From contig JAAFIR010000019.1 of the NCBI GenBank assembly GCA_013297885.1, forward strand, positions 1 through 64,000: a stretch of DNA of 64,000 bases, in the 5' to 3' direction. Under the pieces are notes generated by a model. That model saw nothing but the letters and a program-made list of their open reading frames with translations, made no database searches and had not been told where the DNA came from. A program made the position numbers and the translations under genes. Of this stretch, positions 19,505 to 43,297 are shown piece after piece. The stretch's first letter is position 1, and each line of letters opens with the position of its first letter. This DNA is from Leptospirales bacterium. Its GTDB lineage: Bacteria > Spirochaetota > Leptospiria > Leptospirales > Leptospiraceae.

Positions 19505-19677
19505 GCGATAGAGATTGAAGCGTTTCTGAATAGCCTCGGGTTTTAACCCGAGGATTCAGAAGTAGCGAAACTTAACTGCTTCGCAGTTAGCCAGTTTGCG
19601 ATTCGCTTCCAGTGGCAACTGGCAACCTCGGCAAGATTTTGCCTGCGGTTGGTCGAGACGAAGTCTCGAATCGCCCC
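19505..19677 (-). repeat. Structured dispersed repeat, copy D (multi-hairpin)
   Basis: This block fills the roughly 310-bp gap between two minus-strand genes and is visibly richer in GC than its surroundings. Read on the minus strand it begins GGGGCGATTCGAGAC and ends AATCTCTATCGCT, matching the ends of the other copies in this window. It is almost entirely made of hairpins. They include 7-bp TCGAGAC/GTCTCGA with a 3-base loop (19653-19669), 7-bp TAACTGC/GCAGTTA with a 3-base loop (19573-19589), and a two-part stem of 8 bp then 9 bp (TTCTGAAT, then CCTCGGGTT) at 19524-19561. The outermost GCGAT/ATCGC can also pair. Confidence 0.8.
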
Positions 19678-25098: not shown

Positions 25099-25298
25099 TT
25101 GTCAAAGAAAAAAAATTCTTCTAAGCAAGAGTTAGGGATTGAAATGGCATCAAAAAATTTTTTTATAAAATTTTTTGATGAGAATGGAAAGCCCGACCTT
25201 TTTGGAACAAAAAGGGAACTCCCAAATTTAAAAAAAAACTTGAGGCAAAGAAAATTTTTTCATTTGACAATCCTAAAATAAAAAAAATGTATGATGCT
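25099..25298 (+). pseudogene. Frameshifted gene fragment
   Basis: From a TTG at 25099 the frame reads SKKKNSSKQELGIEMASKNF and then FFDENGKPDLFGTKRELP. After a poly-A tract near 25230 the sensible reading continues in another frame as FKKKLEAKKIFSFDNPKIKK, running into MYDAMENK at 25287. Adding one A would join the two. It could be a remnant of a short gene or a spurious upstream extension of the next protein. No family recognised. Confidence 0.35.
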
Positions 25299-30969: not shown

Positions 30970-32951
30970 AATTTTTTATTTTTATATGCACACTTAGCAT
31001 ATTTTCAATAGACCAAGATATTAATCAAATTACTGGTGGTGGTGGAGATTCTGGAAAACCCACTCCACAACAAAACCAAACTAATAATTCAAATTCTGAC
31101 ATAGAAAATTTAAAAAAAGAAATGGAAGAATTAAAAAAAGAAATGAAAGTTTTAAAAGAACAGAAAAAAAATTCTGACCCTGAGTCTAAAACTGCTGAAC
31201 CTTCCAAATCTGAAGAAATAAATCCTGAAGCAAAAAAAGAAGATACTTCTGTTTTAAATAAAACACTTGATGGATCAAAAGATGATGCTCCAAAAGAAAA
31301 TCAGAAAACATATAACTCGTTTAACAGAGATTTGTTTATGAATATTCAAACTCCTGATTTTAAAAAAGCAATTATGGATAGATACCAATGGCAAATGACT
31401 TTTTGGACTCATGGTAATTATACAAATAATTCTGATCTTCGAAGACTAGATAATACAAACCAAACTTCTGTGGATAGAACAGATGATAAAACTAGATTTA
31501 TTGCAGGAGGACTTCAGTTTGATAATTTTTTTCCAATTCATCCGAGATTAGATTTGCGTTTTGATATTTGGAGATTTGGTTTTTGGGGTGGTGACCAATT
31601 AGCTGGTAGAGACACAAATAATGATATACGTCAAACTACTGGTGGAGCAAATACAGTAAATTTTGGTCAATTGTACATTGATGCTCACTTAAAATTAAAT
31701 CCAACTAGATCTAATAAATTCAGCCTAAGAGTTGGAAGACAAGATTATAGAATAGGTGGAAAAATATTTAGAGATTATTACCAAGATGATATTTTAGATG
31801 CTGTAGTTTTAAAATACTACCATCCAAAACTAGGAAGACTTGATTTACTTTTAATAGATGTATTTTCAAATGCACCAGATACAAGAGATGTAAACTTTAT
31901 TCGTTTTTTAAGTTTTGATAACCAACAAGTAAAAAATTTTAATGGGGATTCTGCTACAACTAGGAATGGATTTTTGTATAGACTTCCAATAATCGGTGAA
32001 TCAGAGTTTATTGGAACACATTTAGATGTAAGAGCTTTTTATTATTTTTCACAATTCAGTGGAACAAACCAACCATTTGGTGGAGCAGACAGAACCAATA
32101 ATGGAACAAGTGGAAATTTTATAGATCGCGATTTTGCTGTTATGCGAGGATTTAGAATTAATGGTGGATATGGAACTTGGTTTCGCTCATCATTTACAGT
32201 TGCTGATAGTTTTGGTGTAGATAGAAAACTGCCAACAATATATTTTGAATCTAAAGATGTTGGAAATTCAGGAAAGTCCTATGGAATAGACCTTGAATTT
32301 TCAGCATGGAATAGAAGAATTCGATTTATGCCAACATATTTTTATGCAGATGGTGGAAGGTATTTTGCAGACGGCACACAATATTCTCATGGATTTGTTT
32401 CGATGAAAGGTGACCAAGTTGGTGGGTATTTAACAGACCTAAACTGGGGTGTTCATCCATCTGCATACACATCAGGACAAGGAATTGCAGACCTTCCATA
32501 CAATAGAGACAGAAGATCAGGCACAGAAAAAAAACATTTAGGATTTGCATTTGGAATTTTAGAAAATTTATTTTTAAAATTAGATTGGTGGAGACTAACT
32601 GATACTTCAGAAATTACATTTTTAAATTCTGAAAAGCCAAGCCTTGGAAGAATTTTTAACAACAAAGATTCTATTCCTACAATTGAAAAAGATATTTTAA
32701 TCAACACCTATCAAAGCCTATTTCCAAATAACCAAACTGTTATCAAAGCTTCTAGAAGATTTGGTACACCAATAGGTGAAGAATACAATATTGGTCTTGA
32801 TTGGAATGTATTTAGAGGATTTAAAGTTTGGGCAACATTTGCAGTTTTTCGTCCGATGAGATATTTTACAACACCAGGTCTAATTCAAAATGCTCCAGAA
32901 GGCAGCACAACATTTACTGGATTTCAACTTGGAACCAGTTTGATTTTTTAG
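30966..32951 (+). CDS. Porin-like outer-membrane protein (alginate-export-like)
   Basis: A 661-residue exported protein that starts at TTG 30966, overlapping the upstream stop by 4 bp. After the signal comes a Gly/Asn linker and a Lys/Glu coiled coil (about residues 40-85), a common trimerisation or peptidoglycan-contact device in porins. The rest is a long barrel with repeated aromatic strands (FGQLYIDAHLKLNPTRSNKF; GRQDYRIGGKIFRDY; YFYADGGRY). The layout resembles alginate-export-type porins of about 400-500 residues. It ends SLIF, with the terminal Phe of barrels. The natural substrate is unknown. Confidence 0.75.
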   Translation: MKFFIFICTLSIFSIDQDINQITGGGGDSGKPTPQQNQTNNSNSDIENLKKEMEELKKEMKVLKEQKKNSDPESKTAEPSKSEEINPEAKKEDTSVLNKTLDGSKDDAPKENQKTYNSFNRDLFMNIQTPDFKKAIMDRYQWQMTFWTHGNYTNNSDLRRLDNTNQTSVDRTDDKTRFIAGGLQFDNFFPIHPRLDLRFDIWRFGFWGGDQLAGRDTNNDIRQTTGGANTVNFGQLYIDAHLKLNPTRSNKFSLRVGRQDYRIGGKIFRDYYQDDILDAVVLKYYHPKLGRLDLLLIDVFSNAPDTRDVNFIRFLSFDNQQVKNFNGDSATTRNGFLYRLPIIGESEFIGTHLDVRAFYYFSQFSGTNQPFGGADRTNNGTSGNFIDRDFAVMRGFRINGGYGTWFRSSFTVADSFGVDRKLPTIYFESKDVGNSGKSYGIDLEFSAWNRRIRFMPTYFYADGGRYFADGTQYSHGFVSMKGDQVGGYLTDLNWGVHPSAYTSGQGIADLPYNRDRRSGTEKKHLGFAFGILENLFLKLDWWRLTDTSEITFLNSEKPSLGRIFNNKDSIPTIEKDILINTYQSLFPNNQTVIKASRRFGTPIGEEYNIGLDWNVFRGFKVWATFAVFRPMRYFTTPGLIQNAPEGSTTFTGFQLGTSLIF

Positions 32952-32959
32952 GAGGAATT

Positions 32960-35900
32960 ATGATATTCAAAAAAATTTGGGCGATTCTTTTCCCACTTCT
33001 ATACATTTCGCATAACTCTATTTATCCAAAAAGGGAAAAGTCGAGCCACAAAATAGTTCCGTTTGCTCTCGCAAACCCGCTTCGCGGTATTTTGAGTCTC
33101 TATCGCATAACAGTGAGTAATCGAAAAAAATCATTCTTCAAGCGAAATCGAGGAGGGGTATTTAAATTATCATTTTTGAATAAAGAAAATTCAAAATCTT
33201 TTTCGAAACTAATTTCCGTATTCCCCCCGAAAGCTTCGCTTTCCATAGCCAAGCTATGCTCAAAGCCAGAATCTATATTGTATTTATTGTTCACAATTAT
33301 AACTTCATTTTTAATAAATTGCTCCAAAGGAGATGCAAAGAAAATTTTACCAAATCCAGGTTATATTTTAGGTTCTGCAAGATTTCAAGTATTTTGGTCT
33401 GATCCCGGAGTTTCCAGAGAAACAGCAGTTGATAAAGGAATAGATAATGAATGGGTAAAATTTATTAATGCTGCTGAAAAAAAAGTAGATGTTGCTGTTT
33501 ACAATCTTGGTCGTCAAGTAATCATTGATGCAATTGTTGCTGCTCGTGAAAGAGGAGTAAAAGTGAGATTAGTTGGGGATGTGGACGAATCACCAACTAA
33601 TGGCTACCAAGCAATTTTTCGAACAGATATTCCATTTTCAGTTGGAAACTCAACAGGAATTCAGCACAATAAATTTGCAATTGCTGATGATAAATATATC
33701 ATGATGGGAACTGGAAATCTCACAGATACAGATCTTATGATGAACAATAATAATTTTATGATTATCGAAAGCCCAACACTTGTCCGCTCTTACACTCGTG
33801 AATTTGAACAAATGTTTTTTGGGAAGTATGCTGGTAAAAAAGAACCAAAAACTACTGATAGAACTCATTTTGTTAATGGAACAAAATTAGAATTATATTT
33901 TTCTCCTTATGATGGAGAAGATGCGATGAATCGAATGATTGAACTTGTAGATAATGCAAAAAAAGAAATTACATATATGATTTTTGCACACACCCATGAT
34001 GAGTTAACTACTGCATTAATTAGAGCGGCTAAACGTGGAGTATTGGTTCGAGGAATTCATGATTATACTTTTATTAGAAGCACTTCGATGGAAGCCCCAA
34101 GAATTTATAATGCAGGAAGATTTAATCCAACTGGACCTTTTAATAAAGAAGACGGAAACGAAAATACAAAAACTCCAGGGCTAAGAACTAGTGGTGGAAA
34201 ACTTCATTGCAAAACAATGATCTTTGATGGAAATGTAGTAAGCACTGGTTCATTTAATTGGTCAAATAATGCAATTAATAATAATGACGAAAATATGTTA
34301 GTAATTCATTCACCATTAGTAGCAAATGAATTATCTAATCAATGGAACTCAATTTGGAATTATGGTCGTCCAATCACAAATCAGATCAAACATCCATCAG
34401 GTGATGTTGTAAAACCTGGTGAGGTAGTAATTTCAGAAGTTAACTGGGCTGGTTCATTTAAAAAAGGTGCGAGTTCGGGAAGTCCAGCTAAAGAAGATGT
34501 GTATATTGAATTGTTCAACACAACAGATCGCATAATCGATATTAGCCACTGGGTTATTACTTGGGATGAAGATGAAGTAATTCATTATGCAATCCCAGAT
34601 GAATTTTCTTGGTTTGAGCCAGGTGTTCACAAAATACACCAAAGTAGAGGAAGACTTGAAATTCCACCTAAAGGATATTTTTTATTAAAGAATGCAAATC
34701 TTTCACTTCCAATTTTAAATCCAACTGCATTTGATAATGATTCTTCTGATAATAAATTTTCAGGAACAAAAAACTTTTCTTTAAGCCAAGCTTTTTTAAG
34801 AATAAGACTTTATGATACTAATATGAATTTGATTGATGAAGCTGGTGATGGTTCACCACCAAGTGCTGGGTTGATTGATCCATTTAATTTTAGAACTCAT
34901 TCTATGGAAAGATTTTTTGATTCAACAGGTAAAGCTTTAAATGGAAAACATTTTGGAAGTTGGTATACTTCAAATGGAAATGATGGACTTGGAACAACTC
35001 TTGATCCACTTACAGGCAAAGGTAGACTTTCTGATGATTATTCTATTTGTGAAACAACTAAAGGTTGTACAGTAGGCACACCAAATGCAAGATTTAATTC
35101 TAATTTTGCATCATCAGCATCAAAACCTCGTAATGGAATATTAGGATTAACTAATATACCAATCGAAGCCTATTCTATTTCAGCAACTGAAGCTGTGATT
35201 CAAATGCGTTGGGCTGTTGTTTCTCCTCCATCTGTCTCAGGTACAAATTCAGTTAGAATCAGTCCAACTGATTCATCAAAACTCATAGTTGGAGTTAATC
35301 AAGTTAGTGGTGTTCTATATACTTTACAAGTGAATAATTCAGGTCTTGATATCACAAATAAAACAGTTGACGGAGGATTTGTCTCCTTTACTGGTTTTAC
35401 AGAAAATAAAGCAAAAGTATTTATCTCTAAAATTTTTCCTTCAGAGTCTAGTGCCAATGGTGATAAAATTGAAATTACAGCTTCTAGTTCTGGAAATACA
35501 AAAGGGCTTGGAGTTTATTTTTTTGATTCAAGCACTTTAAATATTCCGACTTTGATATACCAAATAGGTGATGTAAATATTTCTGAAGGACAAAAAATTT
35601 TAGTTACAATGAATAAAACTTTCCTCAGTGATGATAAAAGATTTAATCAAAATCCAAGTATAAATATTAATGCAAATACTGCTTCTCAGTATGATGTTTA
35701 TTCTCCAATTGGCGGACTAACCTCCACAGATTTAATTTTATTTTTATCTTATGATTTGAAAAAAACTTCTGAAGATATGATGTGTTATTCAAACCAAGAT
35801 GGAGATGTTTCAGAAAATTTAATGAAATGGGGATTTAGATATATCTACAAAAATCCAAGTAATTATTTCTTAGACGGAATATTTCCTCTAGATCAAGTAA

Positions 35901-36019
35901 ACGATTTTGAAATTCAAAAAAATTGTGCTAATTTAATCTCTGCAGGTTCTGGAACTTTTCTAGAAAGAGTTGCAAGAAATAGAAGAGCAACTGATTTTAA
36001 ATGTATAGGTTGTGATTAG
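32960..36019 (+). CDS. Phospholipase D-family nuclease with lamin-tail domain
   Basis: About 1019 residues from the ATG at 32960, which has a strong AGGAGG 9 bp upstream. Two HKD motifs are intact: HNKFAIAD at about residue 234 and HCKTMIFD at about 414, as in secreted PLD-type nucleases or phospholipases. A lamin-tail domain begins at about residue 487 (GEVVISEVNWAGS). A second hydrophobic segment with a lipobox (FTIITSFLINC) lies at about residues 110-120. The true leader may therefore start at TTG 33278, and the first 106 codons may be an insertion that includes structured repeat copy C. Either way the product should be a surface lipoprotein. Confidence 0.8.
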   Translation: MIFKKIWAILFPLLYISHNSIYPKREKSSHKIVPFALANPLRGILSLYRITVSNRKKSFFKRNRGGVFKLSFLNKENSKSFSKLISVFPPKASLSIAKLCSKPESILYLLFTIITSFLINCSKGDAKKILPNPGYILGSARFQVFWSDPGVSRETAVDKGIDNEWVKFINAAEKKVDVAVYNLGRQVIIDAIVAARERGVKVRLVGDVDESPTNGYQAIFRTDIPFSVGNSTGIQHNKFAIADDKYIMMGTGNLTDTDLMMNNNNFMIIESPTLVRSYTREFEQMFFGKYAGKKEPKTTDRTHFVNGTKLELYFSPYDGEDAMNRMIELVDNAKKEITYMIFAHTHDELTTALIRAAKRGVLVRGIHDYTFIRSTSMEAPRIYNAGRFNPTGPFNKEDGNENTKTPGLRTSGGKLHCKTMIFDGNVVSTGSFNWSNNAINNNDENMLVIHSPLVANELSNQWNSIWNYGRPITNQIKHPSGDVVKPGEVVISEVNWAGSFKKGASSGSPAKEDVYIELFNTTDRIIDISHWVITWDEDEVIHYAIPDEFSWFEPGVHKIHQSRGRLEIPPKGYFLLKNANLSLPILNPTAFDNDSSDNKFSGTKNFSLSQAFLRIRLYDTNMNLIDEAGDGSPPSAGLIDPFNFRTHSMERFFDSTGKALNGKHFGSWYTSNGNDGLGTTLDPLTGKGRLSDDYSICETTKGCTVGTPNARFNSNFASSASKPRNGILGLTNIPIEAYSISATEAVIQMRWAVVSPPSVSGTNSVRISPTDSSKLIVGVNQVSGVLYTLQVNNSGLDITNKTVDGGFVSFTGFTENKAKVFISKIFPSESSANGDKIEITASSSGNTKGLGVYFFDSSTLNIPTLIYQIGDVNISEGQKILVTMNKTFLSDDKRFNQNPSININANTASQYDVYSPIGGLTSTDLILFLSYDLKKTSEDMMCYSNQDGDVSENLMKWGFRYIYKNPSNYFLDGIFPLDQVNDFEIQKNCANLISAGSGTFLERVARNRRATDFKCIGCD
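32979..33106 (+). repeat. Structured dispersed repeat, copy C, inside the PLD gene
   Basis: It begins GGGCGATTCTTTTCCC, six codons after the ATG at 32960, and ends TCTCTATCGC. CTTTTCCC pairs with GGGAAAAG. The inner core reads CAAAATA, then hairpin GTTTGC/GCAAAC, hairpin CCGC/GCGG, then TATTTTG. It matches copies A and B, but with different bases in paired positions. Further hairpins (GAAAGC/GCTTTC and CATAGC/GCTATG, near 33231-33256) suggest the inserted block reaches about 33270. The reading frame stays open throughout. Confidence 0.8.
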
Positions 36020-36164: not shown

Positions 36165-36455
36165 ATGAAAGCCAGAAAAACTTATGACCCTAAGTTTAGA
36201 GCAAAAGTAGCATTAGAAGCAGTAAGAGGCAAATTGACATTAGGTGAAATATGTAAACATTACAATATTCATCATAGTGTAGTGATTCGATGGAAAAACG
36301 AGTTACTAGAAAAATTACCATTACTATTTATGAAAGAAGCAGATTCTAATCTGAATGAGGCAATCGAAAAAAATGAAGAGTTGTATAAAGAGATAGGCAA
36401 ACTTCAAATGGAGGTAAAGTATTTAAAAAAAAACTTCTTTACTAACATTAAATGA
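36165..36455 (+). CDS. IS3-family transposase OrfA
   Basis: A 96-residue DNA-binding protein. It starts MKARKTYDPKFRAKVALEAV, followed by a helix-turn-helix (LTLGEICKHYNIHHSVVIRW) and a C-terminal leucine-zipper-like coil (NEELYKEIGKLQMEVKYL). These are the usual OrfA features for recognising the IS ends. It ends in an A9 tract, where the transposase frameshift normally occurs. Confidence 0.9.
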   Translation: MKARKTYDPKFRAKVALEAVRGKLTLGEICKHYNIHHSVVIRWKNELLEKLPLLFMKEADSNLNEAIEKNEELYKEIGKLQMEVKYLKKNFFTNIK

Positions 36456-37275
36456 AAAAAAGAGTTTTATTGATAAAAATGAGACTCTTTCAATTCAAAG
36501 TCAATGTGATTTAATTGGGTTACCTCGTTCAAGTTTTTATTTTGAACCAGCAGAAGAATCAAAATTAAACCTAAAGATTATGAAATTAATAGATAAGCAA
36601 CACACTAACGACCCAGTAAAATTTGGTCAAATCAAAATAGAGAAATATATTGAATCAAAATTAAAACTTGATATAAATAGAAAAAGAATTCAAAGATTAA
36701 TGAGGATTATGGGTGCAGAAGGTGAATATCAAAAAAAGAAAACCAGCCTACCTTCTAAAGATCATATAATATACCCGTATTTATTGAAGAATTTTGATAT
36801 AAATCAACCAAATCAAGTTTGGAGTATTGATATAACATATGTACCAATGAGAAGAGGATTTATGTATCTTGTCGCGATTATAGATTGGTTTTCTAGATAT
36901 GTTCTATCATGGTCAATCTCAAATACAATGGAAAATAATTTCTGTATAGAAGCTCTAAATGAGTCATTGAAAAAATTTGGTAAACCTAAAATATTTAATT
37001 CAGATCAAGGTAGTCAGTTCACAAGTAATAAGTTTACAAGTATATTAGAAAATCATAATATACAAATAAGTATGGATGGTTCATGTTGATGGATAGATAA
37101 TGTTTTTGTTGAAAGACTTTGGAGAACTGTTAAATACGAAAATATTTATCGAAGTTCATATGAAAATGGACATGATTTATTTTTTGGACTAAGGAAATAT
37201 TTTGAATATTACAACGAAAAAAGAATTCACCAATCGTTAAATTATGCTACACCTAAACGAATTCATTTAAAGTAA
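36427..37275 (+). pseudogene. IS3-family transposase OrfB with in-frame stop
   Basis: The integrase catalytic domain is recognisable: WSIDITYVPMRRG (first Asp), FNSDQGSQFTS (second Asp) and DNVFVERLWRT (Glu), completing the DDE triad. A TGA at 37087-37089 separates MDGSC from WIDNVFVERL. The orfB frame is +1 relative to orfA rather than the usual -1, so ordinary slippage on the A9 run would not join them. The element is therefore probably unable to move unless a functional copy acts in trans. Confidence 0.85.
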
Positions 37276-41501: not shown

Positions 41502-41652
41502 GGGCTATGTCAGTTTTAGAGGATGGAAGTTAGATGGTAGAGAATAGAAATTCTAGAATCACATCCTCTAAACTGACCCGAGCTACAAAATGGTTCCGTC
41601 TGCCAGAGGCAGACCCGCTTGGAAAGCAAGCGGCATTTTGTATCTCTATCGC
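41502..41652 (+). repeat. Structured dispersed repeat, copy A
   Basis: It lies between lpdA and thrS. It begins GGGCTATGTCAG and ends ATCTCTATCGC. A long stem pairs GTCAGTTTTAGAGGATG (41509-41525) with CATCCTCTAAACTGAC (41562-41577). The core CCGAGCTACAAAATGG opens a three-stem unit: outer ACAAAATG/CATTTTGT, inner GTCTGCC/GGCAGAC, and inner CCGCTTG/CAAGCGG. Copy B has the same core with a different long stem and different inner hairpin, but pairing is kept. Confidence 0.85.
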
Positions 41653-43185: not shown

Positions 43186-43297
43186 GGGCGATGTCTCATG
43201 AAAAAGTAAAGATTTTTTCATGAGACCCGAGCTACAAAATGGTTCCGTCTCTTCGAGACCCGCTTGGCAAGCTTGCTGCATTTTGTATCTCTATCGC
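43186..43297 (+). repeat. Structured dispersed repeat, copy B
   Basis: It lies between lpdA and vapC. It begins GGGCGATGTCTCATG and ends ATCTCTATCGCTTG. The long stem pairs GTCTCATGAAAAA (43193-43205) with TTTTTTCATGAGAC (43213-43226). The core CCGAGCTACAAAATGG is the same as in copy A. The inner hairpin is GTCTC/GAGAC in place of GTCTGCC/GGCAGAC, and CATTTTGT closes it. GCGAT at the start pairs with ATCGC at the end. Confidence 0.85.

Follow-up and report, generated by a model that had tools for sequence, protein, structure and literature searches.

An in-frame repeat in the leader of a lipoprotein gene

How can a structured repeat lie inside the leader of a lipoprotein gene without interrupting it? 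This question is raised by a phospholipase D (PLD) gene in the analysed window, i.e. the whole stretch of 64,000 nucleotides from contig JAAFIR010000019.1 of a Leptospirales bacterium. According to the preliminary description of this DNA, an element (copy C) had landed in frame between the start codon and the original signal peptide. The features of the gene, of copy C and of other copies in the window are listed below.

32960..36019, forward strand: PLD lipoprotein gene with the putative insertion (1019 aa, frame intact)
32950..32962, forward strand: Shine-Dalgarno sequence AGGAGG (32950-32955) and native ATG (32960-32962) of the PLD gene (from the sequence and the orthologue in genome G026)
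32979..33106, forward strand: copy C, cloverleaf element (model match 56 bits, E 3e-11; fold z -3.57)
32981-32985 with 33102-33106, forward strand: outer stem of copy C
32987-32994 and 33033-33040, forward strand: arms of hairpin H1 of copy C
33043-33055 with 33088-33100, forward strand: stem 2 of copy C
33056-33060, forward strand: unpaired GTTCC of copy C
33061-33076, forward strand: hairpin H2 of copy C
33077-33087, forward strand: hairpin H3 of copy C
33107..33268, forward strand: 54 further open codons (162 bp) between the element and the h-region, in the same frame as copy C
33278..33322, forward strand: hydrophobic stretch and lipobox YLLFTIITSFLINC of the original leader, Cys codon 33320-33322 (sequence, hydropathy)
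41502..41652, forward strand: copy A, between genes (model match)
43186..43297, forward strand: copy B, between genes (model match)
19505..19676, reverse strand: copy D, of a related type 2 or composite, which shares the outer stem and H1 but has another inner part (motif reading)

The PLD product contains two PLD-like domains and one lamin-tail domain, and the gene upstream ends at 32951. As previously noted, an AGGAGG site precedes the ATG and the repeat follows closely: the element begins 19 nt past the A of this codon. The second lipoprotein leader claimed to follow the repeat was also recognized, i.e. a hydrophobic stretch with a lipobox ending in FLINC; the distance from the start to the lipobox Cys is 121 residues. 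Directly 3' of the PLD gene (window 36165-37089) lie reading frames which we take to encode an IS3-like transposase.

Structure and covariation of the cloverleaf element

The anatomy of the family was first read by eye and by folding (copies first parsed were 83-192 nt long), and a covariance model, R1, was then built from 17 copies, copy C not being among them. Each element consists of (i) an outer stem of 5 bp (GCGAT/ATCGC, with the paired variants GAGTT/AACTC, GGGTT/AACCC and GCGTT/AACGC), (ii) a hairpin, H1, variable in both sequence and length, (iii) stem 2, in which GAG-C-TACAAAATG is paired with CATTTTGTA-T-CTC, (iv) an unpaired, conserved GTTCC, and (v) the inner hairpins H2 and H3. 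The fold of copy C was better than that of all 200 of its 200 dinucleotide shuffles. The paired change reported for the core stem was borne out, since CAAAATA/TATTTTG in copy C (33049-33055 with 33088-33094) corresponds to CAAAATG/CATTTTG in copies A and B.

In a MAFFT alignment of the 17 copies 89.8% of the cells pair, and two-sided changes number 52, where shuffles give 14. Fitting 98 matches (95 distinct rows) to the model yields an alignment that by its construction favours the structure; in it 97.9% of the cells pair and 446 are two-sided, against 117 in shuffles, kinship of the copies inflating the two-sided counts. Outside H1, the 2204 cells comprise 2156 Watson-Crick, 12 G-U and 36 mismatched pairs, so that G-U accounts for 0.5%, compared with the 5.3% expected from independent columns. 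RNA helices normally drift through G-U. Since the changes are nearly all paired and Watson-Crick, with G-U so rare, a structure of DNA rather than of RNA is indicated. Such strict exchange fits DNA in either of two ways: selection on the folded strand, or replication in which one arm serves as template for the other. Arm-from-arm copying could produce the strict pairing without a folded intermediate in transposition.

Size and distribution of the family

A 21-base core was found at 31 places in the genome of origin, allowing up to 3 mismatches, and at none when the core was read backwards. The R1 model yielded at least 100 matches in this genome; the 29 further genomes of the order, of which three belong to its genus and another four to its family, had none (136 candidates scored per genome in each case). 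An exact 19-base search of the genome collection identified five contigs of a single metagenome-assembled genome (MAG), Bacteroidia bacterium Co_bin.109 (G030), in which the model found 44 matches. PorP- and gliding-type proteins in locus L039 presumably place the MAG contigs in Bacteroidota. Among 295 genomes of the class of the MAG, itself included, only the MAG was matched, an absence valid for copy-rich genomes only, as 13 candidates were scored per genome and this search recovered 13 of the 44 matches of G030. The family is thus abundant in its own genome and shared with a Bacteroidia MAG; the 29 other genomes of the order yielded no member. Two core patterns gave no exact match in viral contigs.

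Our surveys covered 93 copies of the own genome, most of which lie between genes. The seven weakest copies (36 bits or less) were left out, as were the weak extra matches L149:2828, L090:2842 and window 25129-25223 (reverse strand); the last scored 27.6 bits and is perhaps a decayed copy. Both L148 and L149, two contig ends whose copies are alike, were counted. A search for empty sites of copies A and B in the family by way of lpd revealed that gene order is not conserved.

The own genome also contains a second type of cloverleaf, which has the outer stem and H1 in common with the first but a different inner part, ending in CGCTTCAATC. It occurs at window 19505-19676 (reverse strand), at L060:668-847, and in L073, L079, L086, L090 and L156. 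Similar sequences are presumably common in Bacteroidetes. Plasmid searches by blastn with a type-2 copy returned weak matches only.

Orthologous genes without the repeat

Of the 30 genomes of the order, 11, counting the own genome, contain PLD matches with E values of 1e-40 or lower. In all eight loci with a readable leader the distance from the start to the Cys is 16-57 residues (the starts in G010 and G023 were chosen by hand and may make these leaders too long), against the 121 residues in the gene analysed here; L054 and L057, two further loci, were left out of the count because their leaders are cut. None of the eight contains an R1 match. The nearest orthologue (L048 of G026; 66% identity) retains the same upstream gene end, Shine-Dalgarno sequence and ATG, and its product begins with M-L-F-K, compared with M-I-F-K here. 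It follows that the ATG is native and that copy C came in behind the start codon. An orthologue with the same N-terminal residues and no repeat had been named beforehand as evidence against an insertion; one does exist, in G026, but what it reveals is the native ATG, and the insertion is not contradicted.

A second in-frame insertion

The element was found in frame, on the sense strand and in a gene with outside support in only two of the 93 surveyed copies, namely copy C and L085.

G000:C30:55460-55560, reverse strand: copy L085, behind codon 8 of a lipoprotein gene

The ATG of the L085 gene overlaps the stop codon of a TonB-receptor-like gene. Five relatives, with 32-36% identity (G001, G002, G003, G027, G028), have the end of the receptor gene directly upstream and no element; in four of them the ATG lies at the same overlap, while the G028 gene seems to start with TTG. 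The Cys is residue 17-24 in these five products and residue 54 in the L085 product. Removal of 102 nt from the L085 gene restores a lipoprotein leader of 20 residues in frame, whereas removal of 101 nt gives none. Behind both inserts, lipoprotein leaders were judged by hydropathy and by reading of the lipobox: hydropathy peaks precede FLINC in the PLD product and FLNISC in that of L085. On comparison of sequences, L085 is the cleaner case of insertion, and in both genes the element lies directly behind the native start codon, relatives having the genes without it. The proposed insertion between a start codon and the original signal peptide is thus supported by the eight repeat-free orthologues as well as by this independent second case.

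A long open frame, extending at least 45 nt past both ends of the element, was observed for three of the 93 copies (copy C, L085 and L140), in different frames. L140 (566-1699) and the like-built L161 (746-1696, reverse strand) were excluded from the clean insertions: both are RHS-type orphan fragments, in which the frame starts where an antisense cloverleaf copy has its edge. In the MAG, the survey of copies in genes covered 30 of the 44. The three sense frames are open through the element in 18, 25 and 25 of the 93 copies, and at least one of the six frames is open in 48. An insertion is therefore unlikely to leave a gene open, as the length must also fit, which agrees with the finding that nearly all copies are intergenic.

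The segment behind the repeat

The preliminary description extended the element to 33270, whereas the match of the family model stops at 33106. Judged by this boundary, 162 bp of the proposed insert lie outside the repeat. Apart from one 27-base match, segment 33107-33268 has no copy elsewhere in the genome; the fold of 33107-33275 is at the level of shuffles (z -0.96, 28 of 200 being as good), and there is no credible model match, the best scoring 7.4 bits. A second, hidden element in this segment was not supported by the repeat search, the fold or the model score. The frame said to stay open for about 300 bp through the repeat and further hairpins is indeed open, to 36019, but given this z value and model score the hairpins past 33106 are no more than chance would produce. 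In 4000 dinucleotide shuffles, all 97 extra codons of the PLD gene were jointly open in 0.8%, the 43 codons of the element alone in 13.9% and the other 54 codons in 4.7%. The segment also carries a strong Shine-Dalgarno-like sequence, GAGGAGGGG (33150-33158), approximately 17 nt 5' of the in-frame TTG 33176.

Proposed explanation and its alternatives

Taken together, these data probably reflect the in-frame insertion of a mobile cloverleaf behind a native start codon, where it is read through and then removed with the cleaved leader. The element would be a small, non-autonomous mobile DNA, a single strand of each copy being able to fold into a cloverleaf. The ribosome would start at the native ATG and read through the element, and the leader, lengthened at its amino end, would retain its own hydrophobic stretch and lipobox for export. 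Signal peptidase II may then take off the whole leader, in which case the mature lipoprotein would be unchanged. The probable reason why both insertions are tolerated is such cleavage of the inserted peptide with the leader, and the front of a leader may be one of the few sites in a gene that tolerate an insertion, given an open copy of the right length. However, close to the amino end both precursors (PLD and L085) acquire a further hydrophobic stretch, so their topology may be affected, and an unchanged mature protein is accordingly uncertain.

Translation could instead begin inside or behind the insert (at TTG 33176, 33278 or 33287), which would in effect make the element part of an untranslated leader and its open frame a leftover or a product of chance. 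A start at TTG 33278 would yield a short lipoprotein leader, GAGGAGGGG resembles a strong ribosome-binding site (though at its distance of about 17 nt from TTG 33176), and openness of the element alone is common, as the 48 of 93 copies mentioned above indicate. The native Shine-Dalgarno sequence and ATG are nevertheless intact, and the 97-codon stretch is rarely open in shuffles; moreover, neither 33278 nor 33287 has a Shine-Dalgarno sequence at the usual distance, a start at either leaves no charged n-region, and the internal starts of the L085 gene are no better. TTG 33278 therefore seems a possible but weak alternative start, and we consider internal initiation unlikely overall. Selection on a transcript, with the element acting as a structured RNA (a regulatory RNA or a processing site), would account for structural conservation far above that of shuffles and for copies that are mostly intergenic. 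The rarity of G-U pairs in relation to expectation argues against it, as do the lack of an Rfam family (in Rfam 15 there were no gathering-score matches in the window, the best sub-threshold one, over copy B, reaching 25.8 bits against a cut-off of 83) and the lack of an orientation preference toward neighbouring genes (28, 22, 18 and 17 copies in the four arrangements), and this interpretation is very unlikely. Finally, the genome is represented by a single assembly and assemblies fail at repeats, so the repeat might be absent from the PLD gene, or might not be an insertion at all. But copy C is flanked on either side by unique sequence within a long contig, and no other copy is identical to it; the same arrangement recurs in a second gene and the orthologues of eight genomes have no repeat, which makes error or chance exceedingly improbable.

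If insertion with removal of the leader is correct, an element can be translated and yet discarded with little burden on the mature protein, and insertions offer leaders a way to grow longer. The best-known bacterial examples of in-frame selfish DNA are those of Rickettsia, which are retained in the protein. Two independent leader insertions in one genome suggest a simple rule for where genes tolerate inserts, and unusually long n-regions of signal peptides gain a testable origin.

Comparison with known systems

The insertion of copy C is ordinary in kind, being an in-frame insertion of a repeat, and unusual in its site, in the shape of the element and in its spread. A literature search, mainly of openly readable papers, returned no description of the cloverleaf family, and RU-2 was the only case of repeats in signal peptides that it retrieved. 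The Rickettsia palindromic elements (RPE), cited as the nearest precedent in the preliminary description, are indeed the closest in behaviour (PMC2229807, PMC10969869, PMC5896051), being small structured repeats (105-146 bp) that lie in frame in genes whose relatives lack them, as described in the sources (PMC2229807, PMC10969869). They appear to form a separate family: RPE are described as a long stem-loop of another organism, in contrast to the four-stem cloverleaf found here. By the account of one review, nearly half of those of R. conorii lie in open reading frames (PMC10969869), compared with the two in-frame cases among 93 copies here. The large share of RPE in reading frames is accompanied, in the same account, by a common peptide (PMC10969869), while only three of our 93 copies lie in long frames, which differ and specify no common peptide. 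RPE also stay in the mature protein, whereas in both clean cases reported here the insert lies in the leader and is probably cleaved off.

In-frame fusion is likewise a property of RU-2/YPAL and other enterobacterial RU elements, and RU-2 is described as contributing to a predicted signal peptide in Yersinia (PMC2759123). There, however, the repeat supplies the signal-peptide sequence and the signal peptides of homologues are unrelated, whereas here the original h-region and lipobox follow the insert and syntenic empty sites exist. As far as the cited descriptions go, neither RPE nor RU-2 has syntenic empty sites together with an original h-region and lipobox that follow the insert. MITEs (ERIC, Correia/NEMIS, RUP, QMITE), as characterized in the sources, resemble the cloverleaf in being non-autonomous, about 100-200 bp long and mostly intergenic, with occasional in-frame fusions (PMC2229807, PMC5896051); the cloverleaf differs in having only a 5-bp covarying outer stem, no identified target duplication and a conserved interior structure. 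A canonical REP is a hairpin of 20-40 bp whose foot bears GTAG/GTGG or CGTC as a tag; the cloverleaf has a T-rich flank followed by GGGC as its first bases, and the unit is a four-stem structure of 83-192 nt, so it does not belong to this class.

Mobility and the RAYT question

Amplification of the element may depend on an enzyme acting in trans on the folded strand. We know of no enzyme that moves this cloverleaf, and its mobiliser, if found, would represent new biology. In its fullest form, i.e. a mobile DNA that moves as a folded single-strand cloverleaf, crosses phyla and is harboured safely at the amino end of secretion leaders, our interpretation is offered only tentatively. The flanks comprise a T-rich 5' side and a genome-specific 3' tail. 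Most own-genome copies are followed by a common tail, TAGTATTGAAAAATTTTT, while the MAG copies have another and L085 has neither, which indicates that the tail does not belong invariably to the unit. Runs of T prevented any target duplication from being read at the single exact empty site. Analysis of local GC skew demonstrated no bias with respect to the replication strand (36 positive, 57 negative, p 0.16).

A RAYT transposase (TnpA-REP subclass 2.6) might be what moves the cloverleaf, which would then be the atypical REP of this enzyme. There is a precedent in Bacteroidetes, whose RAYTs are described as having atypical structures on their flanks, further copies of which occur elsewhere in the genome (PMC6006769), and the REPs of subclass 2.6 are, in that description, repeated structured DNA without a GTAG foot, occurring in Bacteroidetes (PMC6006769), as is the case for the cloverleaf. 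The MAG with 44 cloverleafs has one Y1 gene, above the NCBIfam cut-off for REP-associated tyrosine transposase, and its motif YIHQNP corresponds to the Y motif given for subclass 2.6 (PMC6006769). The own genome also has a single Y1 gene, with a type-2 cloverleaf approximately 560 bp upstream. However, neither gene has an R1 element near it as far as the sequence extends (in the MAG the contig stops 0.2 kb from the gene), and relatives of the MAG gene at three plasmid loci of Bacteroidota have other flanking repeats, with no cloverleaf seen. The own Y1 gene, moreover, is below the NCBIfam cut-off and is flanked by CAGTGGGT..ACCCACTG hairpins. Kinship of the cloverleaf to the atypical REPs of subclass 2.6 is possible, but its identity with such a REP, mobilized by the corresponding enzyme, is quite unlikely. 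Searches of viral contigs revealed no relative of the MAG Y1 protein. The CAGTGGGT..ACCCACTG hairpins surround the only Y1 gene of the genome (L060:1326-1940) and look like the REP family of this enzyme; they are also nested in the cloverleaf loops of L016, L027 and L073.
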